Shown here: piece after piece, positions 1 through 4,881 of the stretch | Position numbering within the stretch: position 1 is the first letter of the stretch | Layout of the letters: the number at the start of each line of letters is the position of its first letter | From: Acidobacteriaceae bacterium | GTDB lineage: Bacteria; Acidobacteriota; Terriglobia; Terriglobales; Acidobacteriaceae | Length of the DNA stretch: 10,429 bases | Assembly: GCA_030044455.1 (NCBI GenBank) | Contig: JASHVU010000244.1 | Location: 1 to 10,429 of the forward strand | Direction of reading: 5' to 3' | The notes under the pieces: model-generated | Told to the model about the DNA's origin: nothing | Databases searched by the model: none | The model's input: only the letters and a program-made list of their open reading frames with translations | Made by a program: the position numbers and the translations under genes

Positions 1-250
1 TGAGTTTGTCGCCTAGCAAGAAGCAAGTGAAGTTGAGCAGTGTATAAATCGGGGTAACACGATTGGAGCGGTACATTGAGCAACTAACAGACATTCCCTG
101 TTGCCAAACCAAATCCCGGAGTCTATGTTTCTCGCTCTGCGAGAGGTCAAATCGACCAAAGAACTCCTCGCCGTCCGCTCGAACTTCCAAGCACGAAGCA
201 GGAGATGCCACCAACTCAGAGAGCGCGTGTTGGAATGCTCGTAACGTCAA
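1..250 (-). CDS. Probable MNIO partner protein, N-terminal part (cut by left window edge)
   Basis: An open frame begins just before the end of the MNIO gene and stays open to the window edge, giving 83 visible residues from a TTG codon at 248-250. The N-terminus reads MTLRAFQHALSELVASP, then comes an acidic stretch, a Ser-Gln-Ser-Glu-Lys-His-Arg-Leu helix start (about residues 37-44), and a conserved-looking GMSVSC...YRSNR...P segment (52-67) with LLGDKL at 79-83. This general pattern (FQ-A-L-x-x-L-V near the start, YRxNR later, LG-x-x-L) resembles the small partner proteins encoded beside DUF692 enzymes, which bind the precursor peptide and present it to the oxidase; that role is inferred. 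It overlaps the MNIO gene by 35 bases in another frame, so the two are probably translationally coupled. The start is uncertain: no good Shine-Dalgarno lies before the TTG, and TTG/GTG codons at 209-214, right after the MNIO stop, are alternatives, but they would cut off the FQ-A-L motif. The C-terminal part lies outside the window. Confidence 0.6.
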   Translation of the reverse strand, partial: MTLRAFQHALSELVASPASCLEVRADGEEFFGRFDLSQSEKHRLRDLVWQQGMSVSCSMYRSNRVTPIYTLLNFTCFLLGDKL

Positions 251-1148
251 GGGAGGGCTTATGGTCCTGTGAGAAGATACTTCGAGCACGTGCCAACTGC
301 TCTCGAATTCCCTGATGCCCAAGGAAGTGGAAATAGGAATCGTGAAATTCAAAAGTTATCGCGCGGAGACTTGGGGCCTGGGGCACAAGATACTCTAACA
401 GGCGCCAGACAGGTTCCGGGCAAGGGCCGGAATGTGCGTCTGTGTACATTCCGGCGAATTCCGAGCCACCCGCGATATGCGCTTCGACCACTTTCTCCAG
501 GTCAAGCTCGCGCATATATTCAATCGCATCGAACCGGTGATTTCGCGCATTGGCATACAGGTTGTGAATGTCGAGAAGGATTCCGCAGCCGGTTCGCGCG
601 GTTAGCTCGTTAAAGAATTGCGGCTCAGTCATTTCCTGTTCGGGATAAACAACGAAGTAAACACCGTTCTCGAGAAGAAATGGCACCGGCACGATTTCTT
701 GAACGATATCGACCCGTTCGACAATCATGTTGAGGGCTTCGCGATCGAGGGGCACCGGCAGAGCTACCCCCGCGTTGTGGGTCTGGCCGTCGGAACTCGT
801 AACCTCAGCGAACGACAAGTGATCACTGTGCCACGGAAAGTGATAGCGCTCATGCCAACTCGCGATGTGCCTGACGTAATCCTGATCGAACCGGCCCGCA
901 TTACCAATCGAGAGTCCGATGTTATGTGCCAAAACCGGACGACGCTCAACAACCCAGTCGAGCACTTCTATCCAGGATTCCAGTTCTTCATATTGGTTTG
1001 CACTTCCCGGTCCGTGGTTGGTCCAGAACATGTCAGGTGTGATCTCAAGGAAGTCCAAAGCGTCGAGTTCCGCGCGTAAGAACTCGGGCAGGCTCGGGTT
1101 ATACATCACCCCGACACCTAACATCGGGAGAGCACTCAGCCGATCCAT
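216..1148 (-). CDS. DUF692 / MNIO family multinuclear non-heme iron oxidase
   Basis: 310 aa, a normal length for the family, a TIM-barrel enzyme that uses two or three iron ions and O2 to modify residues, usually cysteines, in ribosomally made peptides (MbnB, TglH and BufB are named members). The metal-binding residues expected of the family are all visible: H75 in AHNIGLS, H107/D109/H110 in HSDHLSF, E160 in LLENGVYF, D193/H195/N196 in LLDIHNLYANA, H224 in VEAHIAGG, D237/H239 in TDAHSG, and E267 in FEFHD. I see no substitution that would inactivate it. The ATG at 1146-1148 is preceded by GAGG at a suitable distance. It sits 77 bp downstream of the small precursor-like gene and overlaps the probable partner gene, so the three form one minus-strand operon. 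The exact modification cannot be read from sequence. Likely cytoplasmic: no signal peptide or membrane segment. Confidence 0.95.
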   Translation of the reverse strand: MDRLSALPMLGVGVMYNPSLPEFLRAELDALDFLEITPDMFWTNHGPGSANQYEELESWIEVLDWVVERRPVLAHNIGLSIGNAGRFDQDYVRHIASWHERYHFPWHSDHLSFAEVTSSDGQTHNAGVALPVPLDREALNMIVERVDIVQEIVPVPFLLENGVYFVVYPEQEMTEPQFFNELTARTGCGILLDIHNLYANARNHRFDAIEYMRELDLEKVVEAHIAGGSEFAGMYTDAHSGPCPEPVWRLLEYLVPQAPSLRAITFEFHDSYFHFLGHQGIREQLARARSIFSQDHKPSLDVTSIPTRAL

Positions 1149-1183
1149 GAGTTACCTCAGAACATCAAATGACAGCAGAGTGC

Positions 1184-1201
1184 AGACCCCCGAAAGGGCC
1201 T
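1184..1201 (-). promoter_or_regulatory. Stem-loop between precursor gene and MNIO gene
   Basis: Read on the minus strand, AGGCCCT, a TTCG loop and GGGGTCT can pair as a 7-bp stem with two G-U pairs (AGGCCCT-TTCG-GGGGTCT). It lies in the 77-bp gap after the precursor stop codon. No T-run follows, so it is not a classical terminator. Hairpins in this place often stabilise or attenuate the message so that precursor is made in excess over enzyme; that role is inferred here. Confidence 0.35.
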
Positions 1202-1225
1202 CGCTATTCCGCGATAATGAGTCAC

Positions 1226-1471
1226 CTACTTTACGGCCGCAAACGTGTTGAGATCGACATTGATGACTTCATCGAGTTGTTCCCGGATGTACCAGTGATC
1301 TCCCGAAGTGCACGTGTTGCACCCGCGCGGGAGCCTTCCGATGATTCCGCCATTAATCAAGCCGCCGATGATGGCGGGTATTTCGGTCGTCTTTGTACCA
1401 TTTGGAACAACGACCTCGATTGTCTTTTTTGCTTTGGAGTACCCTACTCCCGCGACTTTCTCGTTTGCCAT
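1226..1471 (-). CDS. Precursor-like small protein with CxxC core, putative MNIO substrate
   Basis: 81 aa. The ATG at 1469-1471 follows AGGAG at 6-7 nt, a strong ribosome binding site. Three parts are visible: a basic/polar N-terminus (residues 1-30, containing GYSKAKKTIEVVVPNGTKT), a Gly/Ile-rich hydrophobic middle (31-46, IPAIIGGLINGGIIGR), and a C-terminal part with the only two cysteines, C51 and C54, in RGCNTCTSGDHWYIRE, then LDEVINVDL. It is first in the operon with an MNIO enzyme directly downstream, the usual arrangement for a RiPP substrate; the two cysteines and neighbouring H59/W60/Y61 are the likely modified region. Against a bufferin-like product: there is no N-terminal signal peptide and there are only two cysteines. 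I do not recognise a named peptide class. It could also be a small structural or regulatory protein, but its gene position makes the substrate role more likely. Confidence 0.7.
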   Translation of the reverse strand: MANEKVAGVGYSKAKKTIEVVVPNGTKTTEIPAIIGGLINGGIIGRLPRGCNTCTSGDHWYIREQLDEVINVDLNTFAAVK

Positions 1472-1677
1472 ATGTTTCTCCTCTAGGTGCCCGAGGTTGG
1501 GTAGTTCGATTCCGGGTAACCCTTTGTCGCAAACTTCCCAGCCGTTCCGGAGCGAGTTTGGGATGACCAGACGCTAATGTGCGTATTTTGGGGATCGGAG
1601 GCTGACGAGCCTGTTTGGGGCGACCTTAAGCTAACCGGCTGACTGCAGGGGAACCGAAGGTTGCCTAAAGCTGACCA

Positions 1678-1707
1678 AGAATAGGCGCCCTTTTCCGGGG
1701 ATGTCAA
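1678..1707 (-). promoter_or_regulatory. Sigma70-like promoter for the precursor-MNIO operon
   Basis: On the minus strand TTGACA (1702-1707, perfect -35) is followed after 18 bp by TATTCT (1678-1683, 4 of 6 matches to the -10). Transcription would start near 1671, leaving a leader of about 200 nt before the precursor ATG. Found by eye only. Confidence 0.4.
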
Positions 1708-1738
1708 GAAATAATATAGTCAATTGAGAAACAAGGTT

Positions 1739-1753
1739 CGGGCAGCGAGCCCG
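1739..1753 (-). terminator. Weak terminator-like hairpin upstream of the MNIO promoter
   Basis: CGGGC (1739-1743) pairs with GCCCG (1749-1753) over a 5-nt loop. On the minus strand it is followed by AACCTTGTTT, a poor T-run. It lies downstream of the tRNA gene and just before the operon promoter, so it could separate the two transcripts, but the stem is short. Confidence 0.25.
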
Positions 1754-2010
1754 GCAAAATCTGTGCTGGTAGGAATGAGAGAGACCGATGTGGTTGAAGG
1801 GTTCAAAGCGGGGTACTCAACAAAACCTCCCACAACCGCAAGGAATCACAATGCCACCAGCATAATCTCATCTGACCATGGAAAATTTCGTGCCAATCGC
1901 TGCATCCACACTCTCAACGAATACTCGAATAAGACGCACCTTCCACCACTCGAGCACCTGGGCTGATCCAAAGGGGTCGGAAACACTGGTCTTTAAGCTA
2001 TTGAAAACAT

Positions 2011-2087
<77 letters not shown>

Positions 2088-2508
2088 AACATGGATGCGA
2101 GCGTATCGAAAAGGCGCGGCCTGGCGCGTTCCTCCCCTCGTTACGCTCACTCAAGTGTAACAGAGTCCTGCTGCTAAAAGCGGGCGGCTGGGTTCAAAGA
2201 GCAGCCGCCAAAAGTGAAACAACCGGCACAGCGCCAAATTGACCCTGTTTGATCTGGTTTCTTATACTCGCTGCATGCGGTTGGTATGCCCATGTTGTTG
2301 TCGCTCCTCGCGGTTCTAGCCTGCCGAGACGAGCGCCGTGGCAGGGCAGCGTGTTTGAAATCCGGCGCACCTTCCCCGCTCTCGTCAAGCCAGCGCTCTC
2401 TCGTCAGGTTACGATTTCTGGTCCGTGTCGAATGAATCTTCATGTGTTCAAAGGCACGTCATTCACTCGACGCTATCAGTAAGGAGAGTGCGGCGGTTGC
2501 CCACCTGA
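2088..2508. other. Gene-poor region between tRNA-Pro and cysM
   Basis: About 420 bp without a convincing gene. It holds one strong hairpin (2183-2209, listed separately) and, at the right end, the cysM translation start region with AAGGAG at 2481-2486. No clear promoter with both boxes was found by eye for either the tRNA or cysM. Confidence 0.5.
2183..2209. repeat. Perfect 8-bp inverted repeat (hairpin)
   Basis: GGCGGCTG (2183-2190) and CAGCCGCC (2202-2209) are perfect reverse complements over an 11-nt loop. Short A or T runs flank it (AAAAG on both sides) but no proper T-tract follows in either direction. It may be a weak bidirectional terminator or a scattered palindromic element; neither can be decided from this window. 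Confidence 0.45.
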
Positions 2509-3444
2509 ATGGAATGCAAAGATTTCCAGTTCGGTTCTGGTCTGCTCGATAGGATCGGCAACACTCCGCTGATTCGCCTCGACACCATTGTGGATGAACT
2601 TGACGGCGTGACCCTGCTGGCCAAAGCCGAATGGAACAATCCCGGCGGCAGCGTAAAAGACCGCGCCGCAGCAGCCATGATTCGCGCCGCCCGCGAACAA
2701 GGCAAGCTCATCCCGGGTAAAACCATCCTCGATGCCACCAGCGGTAACACAGGCATCGCGTTGGCAATGCTTGGCGCGGCGCAGGGCTTTCCTGTTCAAT
2801 TGGTGATGCCTTCCAATGTCTCTCCCGAGCGCCGGCGGATCCTGAAAGCTTATGGCGCTCAAATCGAGTGGACCGACCCAGACCTGAGCTCCGACGGCGC
2901 CATTCTTCGCGCACGAGAGATGGCCGCAAACGATCCTGGCCGTTTTTGCTATATCGACCAATACTCGAACGAAGCCAATTGGCGCGCGCACTACAATGCA
3001 ACGGGACCGGAAATCTGGCGCCAGACCGATGGCCGGGTCACGCATTTTGTCGCCGGCATTGGAACGAGCGGCACTTTTACCGGAACCACTCGCCGTCTCA
3101 AGGAACTCAACCCAGCCATCAAGTGCATCAGCATGCAACCCGGCTCGCCTTTTCACGGACTCGAAGGACTCAAATACCTGGCCACCACGATTGCGCCGGC
3201 CATCTACGATCCCAGGCTGGCCGACCGCAACATCGAAGTGGAGACCGAAGCTGCTTATTCCATGGCCCGGCAGCTTGCGCGCGAGAGTGGCCTGCTGGTC
3301 GGTATCTCAGCGGCAGCCGCAGTAACGGCAAGTCTGCAGGTCGCCCGCGAAGAATCTTCAGCAGGCCGCACCGCCGTCATCGTCACCGTGCTGCCTGACT
3401 CCGCAGACAAATATCTTAGCGACCGCTTTTGGGAAGAGGCATGA
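2509..3444 (+). CDS. cysM: PLP-dependent cysteine synthase, CysM type
   Basis: 311 aa, fold-type II PLP enzyme that makes cysteine by replacing the leaving group of an activated serine with sulfide or a sulfur-carrier thiocarboxylate. Visible motifs: LLDRIGNTPLIRL (12-24), the PLP lysine K50 in NNPGGSVKDR, the substrate loop TSGNTG (78-83), the phosphate-binding GIGTSGTFTG (183-192), and LPDSADKYLSDRFW near the C-terminus, where families have a Ser/Asp contacting the PLP pyridine nitrogen. The P-x-x-YDP stretch at about 230-235 recalls mycobacterial CysM, which uses O-phosphoserine and the CysO carrier, and the next gene is a Mec-like peptidase, which supports that route; substrate choice is still an inference. 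The start is fixed by an in-frame TGA directly before the ATG (2506-2508). The AAGGAG at 2481-2486 is 22 nt away, too far for an ordinary ribosome site. Confidence 0.95.
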   Translation: MECKDFQFGSGLLDRIGNTPLIRLDTIVDELDGVTLLAKAEWNNPGGSVKDRAAAAMIRAAREQGKLIPGKTILDATSGNTGIALAMLGAAQGFPVQLVMPSNVSPERRRILKAYGAQIEWTDPDLSSDGAILRAREMAANDPGRFCYIDQYSNEANWRAHYNATGPEIWRQTDGRVTHFVAGIGTSGTFTGTTRRLKELNPAIKCISMQPGSPFHGLEGLKYLATTIAPAIYDPRLADRNIEVETEAAYSMARQLARESGLLVGISAAAAVTASLQVAREESSAGRTAVIVTVLPDSADKYLSDRFWEEA

Positions 3445-3887
3445 GCGTACTCGGCATCTTCGCCCCGGTCTTCGAGGCGATCCGTGCGCACGGCGAAGAA
3501 ACCTATCCGCATGAGTGCTGCGGCGTGCTGCTTGGCCACGAATCACCCCAAGGGTGGCGCATTCATGCGTCCATCAGGGCCGGCAACATCCGCACTGATT
3601 CGGCCCACAATCGCTACAGCATTTCGCCTGCAGAACTCATCGGCATCGAGCGCGAAGCTCGCCGTCAGGAACTGAGCATCGCCGGCTTCTATCACTCGCA
3701 TCCCGATCACCCCGCACAGTGGTCGTTCACCGACTTCACCGAAGCCCACTGGATTGGCTGTTCCTACGTCATCACTTCCGTGGCTCAGGGCAAGTCGACG
3801 GTCACCAATTCATTCCTGCTGGCCGGCGCCACCGAAGAAGACAAACGCTTCGAGCAGGAAACGATCGAAGTCATCGAAGCCATCTGA
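3441..3887 (+). CDS. JAMM/MPN+ zinc metallopeptidase, Mec-like
   Basis: 148 aa counted from the ATG at 3441, which overlaps the cysM stop as ATGA. An ATG 12 bp upstream is in frame but would overlap cysM more and adds only MGRG. The JAMM zinc motif is complete: catalytic E25 in HECCGVLLG, and H85-x-H87-x7-S95-x2-D98 in GFYHSHPDHPAQWSFTD. Family members cut isopeptide or peptide bonds after ubiquitin-like folds. In Mycobacterium the homologue Mec releases cysteine from the CysO-cysteine adduct made by CysM. The tight coupling with cysM supports that role here. No ThiS/MoaD-like carrier gene is in the window, so the partner must be encoded elsewhere if the pathway operates. Cytoplasmic; no signal peptide. 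No convincing terminator follows. Confidence 0.92.
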   Translation: MSVLGIFAPVFEAIRAHGEETYPHECCGVLLGHESPQGWRIHASIRAGNIRTDSAHNRYSISPAELIGIEREARRQELSIAGFYHSHPDHPAQWSFTDFTEAHWIGCSYVITSVAQGKSTVTNSFLLAGATEEDKRFEQETIEVIEAI

Positions 3888-3919
3888 TCGATTCTTTTTC
3901 ATCTCCTTTGCGCATAGCG

Positions 3920-3962
3920 TTGTCAATCCACCGCGATTGACCTTCAATTACTGTGCTATGAT
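3920..3962 (+). promoter_or_regulatory. Candidate promoter(s) of the creatininase-family gene
   Basis: TTGTCA (3920-3925) and TTCAAT (3943-3948) are spaced by 17 bp. A better -10, TATGAT (3957-3962), has TTGACC (3937-3942) only 14 bp upstream, which is short. One of these probably drives the gene at 4000; sequence alone does not decide. Confidence 0.3.
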
Positions 3963-3999
3963 TCCGGTGCTCTTCACGTCAACTCAGGAGTACTGACCT

Positions 4000-4881
4000 A
4001 TGATGCGAGTTCGTTTAATCGCCCTGCCCATCGTTTTGCTCGTGATTTCAACTTCGGTCGTCCTGGCTCAATCCACTCTTTCTCCAAAATGGGAGGAACT
4101 GACCGGACCAGACTTCATTCAGGCCATTCACCAAGCGCAAGGGGTCTGCGTCTTGCCCTTCGGCATCCTTGAAAAACACGGTCCGCATCTGCCCATAGGT
4201 ACCGACCTCCTGGACGTGCGCTTCGCCGTAATGAACGCGGTAAAGCAGGAGTACGCTGTTGTCTTTCCCGAATACTACTTCGGCCAGATCTTCGAGGCGA
4301 AACAGCAACCGGGAACGGTGGCCTACAGTCTTGCGACGCAACTCACTCTGTTGCAGGAGACGGCCGATGAGATGGCGCGCAACGGCTGCAAGAAGGTGGT
4401 AATTGTAAATGGCCACGGCGGCAACAACTATCTGCTGCCGCTCTTTGCCCAAGCACAGATGGCATCGCCACACGACTACGTCGTCTACGTCATTGGGCTG
4501 ATCAATTTCGCCGGCCCCGACCGTCCCAAGTTAAAGACCAAAGTTGACGGTCACGCCGGCGAACAAGAGACTTCGCTGATGCAGGTAGCCCGCCCCGACC
4601 TGGTGCACATGGATCGCGCTCAACAGGAGTCGGGCGCGGATCTCAACCGCGACCCGCTGCCCGGCACCGTCTATACCGGCATATGGTGGTATGCCCGCTT
4701 CCCCAATCACTACGCAGGCCAGGGTGAAGCAGGCAACAAGGAACTGGGCGAGTACGACCAAAAGCAATGGTCGCAAAAGATCGCCGAGGCTCTCAAGGCC
4801 ATCAAGGCAGACGACGAGAGCCTGAAACTTCAAGACCAGTTTTACCGGGACTCACAGCACCCGCTCGATACCAAACAGTAG
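4000..4881 (+). CDS. Creatininase-family metal-dependent amidohydrolase, exported
   Basis: 293 aa. The family (PF02633) hydrolyses amide bonds with two metal ions; members include creatinine amidohydrolase, FAPy deformylase-like and mycofactocin MftE-type peptidases, so the substrate here is unknown. Ligand motifs are intact: E58, H60 and D69 in LEKHGPHLPIGTD, H139 in NGHGGN, and E188 in HAGEQETS. The first 23 residues form a classical Sec signal peptide: MMRVR, a hydrophobic core (IALPIVLLVISTSVV), then a LAQ-S cleavage region. This predicts a periplasmic enzyme, unlike most cytoplasmic family members. AGGAG lies 9 nt before the first of two tandem ATG codons (4000, 4003). It is a single gene: 112 bp from the previous plus-strand gene, and convergent with the next one. 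It does not look like part of an obvious pathway in this window. Confidence 0.93.
   Translation: MMRVRLIALPIVLLVISTSVVLAQSTLSPKWEELTGPDFIQAIHQAQGVCVLPFGILEKHGPHLPIGTDLLDVRFAVMNAVKQEYAVVFPEYYFGQIFEAKQQPGTVAYSLATQLTLLQETADEMARNGCKKVVIVNGHGGNNYLLPLFAQAQMASPHDYVVYVIGLINFAGPDRPKLKTKVDGHAGEQETSLMQVARPDLVHMDRAQQESGADLNRDPLPGTVYTGIWWYARFPNHYAGQGEAGNKELGEYDQKQWSQKIAEALKAIKADDESLKLQDQFYRDSQHPLDTKQ

Follow-up and report, generated by a model that had tools for sequence, protein, structure and literature searches.

The 10,429-base contig JASHVU010000244.1 of an Acidobacteriaceae bacterium (the window of this analysis, which is one entire contig, G000:C496, of a fragmented genome of 813 contigs that is 76.5% complete) carries a compact set of precursor, oxidase and partner genes. 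On the minus strand, from base 1471 to the contig edge, lie in order a gene for an 81-amino-acid peptide, a gene for a multinuclear nonheme iron-dependent oxidase (MNIO) and the 5' part of a gene for a partner protein. The initial annotation had recognized this trio as a CxxC peptide gene, a DUF692/MNIO oxidase gene and an overlapping partner-like gene, and the coordinates, the PF05114 match and the homology to a complete copy of the set (locus L007, below) confirm it. The reading of these genes as a system for a ribosomally synthesized and post-translationally modified peptide (RiPP) is well supported by sequence comparison. They probably constitute a minimal RiPP-type cassette in which the MNIO oxidizes the second cysteine of a CxxCxSG loop in the precursor, which the partner presents; the basis for this explanation is the gene set and its order, the conservation of the motif, the modeled fold of the partner and the co-occurrence of the three genes.

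The peptide gene starts with an ATG at 1471 and stops at 1226–1228, and its product has exactly two cysteines (C51 and C54), both internal and at least 27 residues before the C-terminus. Signal peptides were judged from N-terminal hydrophobicity means; the best 12-residue mean of the peptide is 0.18, versus 2.03 for a bufferin-like open reading frame (ORF) in the same genome, which bears out the earlier description of a signal-less, two-cysteine precursor. The predicted structure is partly folded, with the Cys loop modeled at low confidence. A search with the peptide gave 17 proteins including itself, one of them a 91% identical Acidobacteriaceae protein. Across nine diverse precursors (alignment A7) only the C, C, S and G of C-x-x-C-x-S-G are invariant, and the motif occurs in the subtypes CNTCTSGDH, CxxCKSGLD, CLACRSGFN, CGGCYSGLD and CAPCLSGLD. 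The profile made from these nine matches 174 proteins at E ≤ 0.01, with source names that include Acidobacteria, Pyrinomonadaceae, Xanthobacteraceae and Candidatus Accumulibacter. Motif counts cover 124 family proteins (107 new ones and the first 17, the new ones taken from the best 120 of the 174 matches): the second cysteine is present in 124 of 124, as are the Ser and Gly of the motif, the full CxxCxSG is present in 122, the remaining two read HxxCYSG with His for the first Cys, and 118 have exactly two cysteines. Because it is universal in this set the second cysteine is the best candidate site; the peptide is very probably the substrate of the MNIO, and Cys54 is the probable modified residue. 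The window and L007 peptides share the identical stretch RLPRGCNTCTSGDHWYI and vary in their N-terminal halves; they are 78% identical overall and the two MNIOs 92%, and dN/dS is 0.43 between the peptides, 0.08 between the MNIOs and 0.05 over the available part of the partner.

A six-frame scan of 93.8 kb from the ten cassette loci, limited to ORFs of 60 codons or more, gave 12 matches to C..C.SG, of which 10 were precursors just upstream of an MNIO gene on the same strand; the ORFs of five control MNIO loci, one of which (L025) has almost no upstream sequence, contained none. Most of the loci so tested had served to define the motif; L029 and L030 were encountered after it had been fixed. The association between motif and MNIO is not due to chance.

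The window MNIO matches PF05114 with 202 bits (E = 1.3e-59), above the cut-off. Its NCBIfam scores are 163.5 bits for BufB, 148.2 for HvfB, 118.2 for ApyH and 66.4 for ChrH, all far below the cut-offs. The best match by sequence among solved structures is TglH (101 bits), and the alignment of the two has in common H75, H110, E160, D193, H224, D237, H239 and the Glu of "TFEF," which we take to be the iron ligands; in an alignment of nine MNIOs the first seven are invariant and the TFEF Glu is not. With the Pfam cut-off passed and the H/E/D/H/D/H residues kept, the protein is by homology an MNIO enzyme.

The partner gene likely starts at a TTG at 250 (LTLRAFQ), which gives a 35-nt overlap with the MNIO gene, and its frame leaves the contig at base 2 after 83 codons; since the window is the whole contig, this truncation is the contig end and not a mutation. 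Over the visible part, identity to the L007 partner is 93%. No Pfam family, DUF2063 included, matches the complete L007 and L008 partners at E ≤ 1, and the predicted structure of the former resembles TglI and NGO1945. In the terms of a survey of about 14,000 MNIOs (Antoine et al. 2025, PMC12452194) the modeled partner is of "PME-type 2," with DUF2063-like helices and a RiPP recognition element (RRE)-type fold and no DUF2063 signature. According to the portions of that survey available to us, the signal-less precursors compared there go with PME-type 2 partners and Sec-exported bufferin-type precursors with DUF2063 partners, and the window cassette conforms to this pairing.

The cassette is conserved across species. 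The peptide is matched in two of 60 relatives, that is, in two of 36 genomes of the same genus, its own included. A scan of named genomes with the peptide reached the nearest cassette, in an Acidobacteriaceae metagenome-assembled genome (MAG) of the same genus (L007, genome G020, JASHOC010000158.1), and one in an Acetobacteraceae MAG (L008); both are whole, and they are the loci reached by peptide alone. With the L007 partner as query, 54 proteins and six of 399 genomes of the class were matched, and each of the five class genomes besides the window's own has a small upstream CxxCxSG ORF and an MNIO of 39–49% identity. A partner profile run over 297 Acidobacteriota genomes gave five matches: the window's, two strong ones, which are the same cassette (L029 and L030), and two weak ones (E 1.5e-5 and 6.3e-5), which adjoin a distant MNIO without the CxxCxSG motif. 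A precursor profile gave three matches in 396 Acidobacteriota genomes (the window's and those of the two genomes with strong partner matches), all in cassettes; the profile rows include the precursors of the window (P0001) and of G633 (P0073), so only the third match is independent of the profile. In 299 Pseudomonadota genomes it found only the L008 precursor, itself a profile row. The order peptide-MNIO-partner holds in all ten loci with readable context (the window, L007, L008 and seven from genome searches; most of the 174 family proteins lie outside this count), and an MNIO adjoins the peptide gene in every one; the refuting case named in the initial annotation, peptide homologs widespread without a DUF692 neighbor, did not arise among these loci.

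The few matches in the genome scans indicate that the cassette is rare and patchy, and from its sequence matches the family appears to occupy scattered acidobacteria and a few other bacteria. In a tree the window MNIO joins the Acetobacteraceae MNIO first and the MNIOs of other acidobacterial families only after it (support 88/90), a hint of transfer. The first 2000 bases of the window, at the cassette end, have a G+C content of 52.5–52.8% versus 54–60% further along the contig, weakly in line with transfer. Just downstream of the L007 cassette (3808–3996, minus strand) lies a DDE_3 transposase fragment (23.5 bits, cut-off 28.6), in line with a mobile and patchy cassette. A tRNA-Pro(CGG) gene lies at 2011–2087 on the minus strand, roughly 540 bases ahead of the peptide gene on its 5' side; in the nine other cassette stretches a tRNA search found none. 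The L029 cassette (1541–4673) stands between dCTP deaminase-like and dUTPase-like genes, going by visual inspection of their translations.

A mechanism parallel to that of TglHI would have the partner presenting the precursor and the MNIO oxidizing a residue of its loop. The helical and RRE-like domains of the partner would hold the N-terminal part of the 81-residue precursor, and the MNIO would use O2 and two or three irons for a four-electron oxidation in the flexible CxxCxSG loop, with its center at the second Cys. This would yield a small modified protein, either retained in the cytosol or dealt with by general machinery, in which the modified Cys and its neighboring Cys (or His) may together coordinate a soft metal; metal binding is somewhat less than an even prospect. 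The neighborhoods suggest metal handling weakly: at L015 genes of a cobalt-type ABC transporter (CbiMQO) diverge from the cassette, and at L017 a Met/His/Cys-rich protein with a signal-like start is encoded just upstream of the precursor. At one locus, L016, a MacB-type permease gene lies downstream of the cassette.

Several points weigh against this reading. The co-occurrence count is biased, since the partner was the first route to seven of the ten loci. No family recurs among 18 neighboring ORFs scanned at eight loci; the scan thus reveals neither a dedicated peptidase nor a dedicated exporter, an unusual situation if the RiPP is secreted. The case for a metal function is weak because the L015 and L017 neighbors occur in single loci. 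Finally, the motif subtypes have an Asp or Asn one or two positions beyond SG, its place not fixed, and the four MNIOs that PMC12636315 lists, in the part available, besides those acting on cysteine modify Asp, Asn or Phe.

As to the nature of the modification, it is a tentative possibility that one or both cysteines become an oxazolone-thioamide or 5-thiooxazole, as in methanobactin, HvfA and the bufferins, and that the product is a cytosolic copper buffer. BufB and HvfB are the best NCBIfam scores of the MNIO, and three of the five Cys-acting MNIOs in the introduction of PMC12636315, as far as it was available, form one of these groups; the NCBIfam scores nevertheless all fall far below the equivalog cut-offs, the window family has no EGKCG-type motif, and its partner lacks a match to DUF2063, which the available text of PMC12452194 links to Sec-exported bufferin-type precursors. 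The spacing of CxxCxxG equals that of CPxCGxG in ChrA and DybA, and this makes a ChrH/DybH-like crosslink a live, if unlikely, alternative to oxazolone or thiooxazole. Within a folded peptide, the second Cys would be oxidized and the first would attack its beta-carbon to give a thioether macrocycle, with the backbone becoming a hydantoin; a shift of −4 Da (as in DybA) and the loss of one alkylatable thiol would be expected. For ChrA, the accounts available in PMC10214503 and PMC12636315 propose that oxidation begins at the second Cys and that the first then closes the thioether ring, and replacement of the second abolishes activity while replacement of the first still yields a shunt product; the window family is similar in that its second Cys never varies and its first hardly does. 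On the other hand, the MNIO scores only 66 bits with the ChrH model against 163.5 with BufB, and this position outside the ChrH subfamily makes the parallel in spacing a lead only. In addition, the ChrA motif is C-terminal and that of the window family internal, ChrI belongs to the DUF1772 membrane proteins and DybH is partner-independent (PMC12636315, in part), whereas the window-family partner is TglI-like, and a first Cys replaced by His (2 of 124) is incompatible with a thioether.

Ser56 and Gly57 vary as little as Cys54 does and the first Cys is replaceable by His, as would be expected if the target of the MNIO were a residue other than Cys (an Asp, Asn or Ser close to SG), with the CxxC serving only for metal binding or a disulfide; this is improbable, as the distance to the Asp or Asn is not constant (SGDH, SGLD, SGFN). 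It is highly improbable that the peptide is a small regulator or accessory subunit of an MNIO complex and no substrate at all: it is predicted to be partly folded, has no signal, and has no export gene common to the scanned neighbors, but conservation peaks in the low-confidence Cys loop while the body drifts, the usual core and leader pattern, and precursor genes before the MNIO gene are the rule in bufferin clusters (PMC12452194, in the portions available).

The preferred reading, oxidation of the second Cys by an MNIO with its partner, can be set against the named systems. TglHI/TglA is close in that TglH is the nearest solved MNIO and the partner model is like TglI, but TglH acts on the C-terminal Cys of a scaffold (PMC12636315, in part), whereas both window cysteines are internal, which excludes the pearlin (TglA) class, and no further pathway gene is found among the scanned neighbors. 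ChrH/ChrA and DybH/DybA share the CxxCxxG spacing and the more essential second Cys; their C-terminal motif, other MNIO subfamily and other or no partner differ, and an internal CxxCxSG with a ChrH score so far below the cut-off of 600 bits excludes the chryseobasin (ChrA/DybA) class. The bufferins and oxazolins (BufABC, HvfABC) have the same precursor-MNIO-partner order and the MNIO models that score highest here, yet are described in the available text of PMC12452194 with Sec signals, at least four cysteines or EGKCG motifs, and DUF2063 partners, none of which the window cassette has; two Cys instead of 4, 6 or 12, no hydrophobic N-terminus and the Pfam-negative partners place it outside the bufferin class. 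The methanobactin class is excluded by an MbnB score of 25 bits (cut-off 325). Thus the separation from bufferins, methanobactins and TglA that the initial annotation proposed agrees with the motif differences. Its further claim, a substrate that fits no named class, is weakened because PMC12452194 names adjamnio-7, signal-less putative precursors with a CxxC motif in MNIO gene clusters (for example Novilysobacter spongiicola WP_078758616), a description that the window precursor fits. Judged from that description only, the chances that the two are the same family are about even. The main text of PMC12452194, as available, does not name Acidobacteria, nor does its text describe CxxCxSG, and the literature searched reports no product for this motif. 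The compact cassette, the signal-less two-Cys peptide and the distinct motif stand from the earlier interpretation.

The features of the cassette and of the region upstream are given in Table 1. The promoter-like site has the same position in L007 (TTGACA-N18-TATCCT there, TATTCT as the second hexamer in the window), but one site found versus 0.6 and 0.4 expected in shuffles makes the match alone weak evidence. Between this site and the peptide start lie 28–29 bp repeats, of which L007 (1365–1456) has 3.2 clean copies and the window fewer and decayed ones. Exact matches to RTCCCCAAAATACGC in both genomes number three, all inside these repeats, with three one-mismatch sites elsewhere. The repeats are possibly operators or leader RNA.

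Table 1. Cassette genes and upstream elements in the window
Feature	Position	Strand	Basis
Precursor peptide gene, 81 aa, Cys51 and Cys54	1226..1471	-	Homologs with the same motif beside MNIO genes
CNTCTSG (CxxCxSG motif), peptide residues 51–57	1301..1321	-	Conservation among precursor homologs
MNIO (DUF692, PF05114) oxidase gene, 310 aa	216..1148	-	PF05114 match
Partner gene, first 83 codons, TTG start	2..250	-	Complete homolog at L007 2767–3567
Shine-Dalgarno-like GAGGAG before the peptide gene	1478..1483	-	Sequence
Sigma70-like promoter, TTGACA-N18-TATTCT	1678..1707	-	Consensus match; aligned with L007
Imperfect direct repeats, 28–29 bp, about GGTCnCCCAAAATACGCTCGTCAGnnTCA	1551..1625	-	Window copies below the TRF threshold

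The same genome has a second MNIO gene (L006, G000:C68, 1357–2221), whose product is 28% identical to the first; the ORF before it has a signal-like N-terminus and repeats of the CKGKNDC/CKGQGGC type, and by sequence L006 is probably a bufferin/oxazolin-type locus. Further along the window, at 2509–3887, a gene resembling cysteine synthase (CysM the best model, at 356 bits, cut-off 394) is followed directly by a JAMM/Prok-JAB protease gene, with no sulfur-carrier gene between them; such a pair is known from thiocarboxylate-dependent cysteine synthesis. At 4000–4881 lies a gene for a creatininase-family protein with a signal-like N-terminus, which among NCBIfam models scores highest with the mycofactocin peptidase MftE (83.5 bits, cut-off 172).

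The window cassette thus belongs, by sequence, to a conserved, uncharacterized MNIO-RiPP family, one of 174 proteins (E ≤ 0.01) that has a four-residue signature and whose three-gene set is accompanied by no further gene shared among the neighbors scanned. The complete copies L007 and L008 are small enough for immediate testing, and the natural His-for-Cys variants are built-in controls for which Cys reacts. It is rather unlikely that this is a new MNIO family that forms a ChrH-like or previously unseen ring on a CxxCxSG loop lying inside a folded mini-protein of the cytosol; if it is, the product would be a genetically encoded metal or redox center rather than a secreted peptide.
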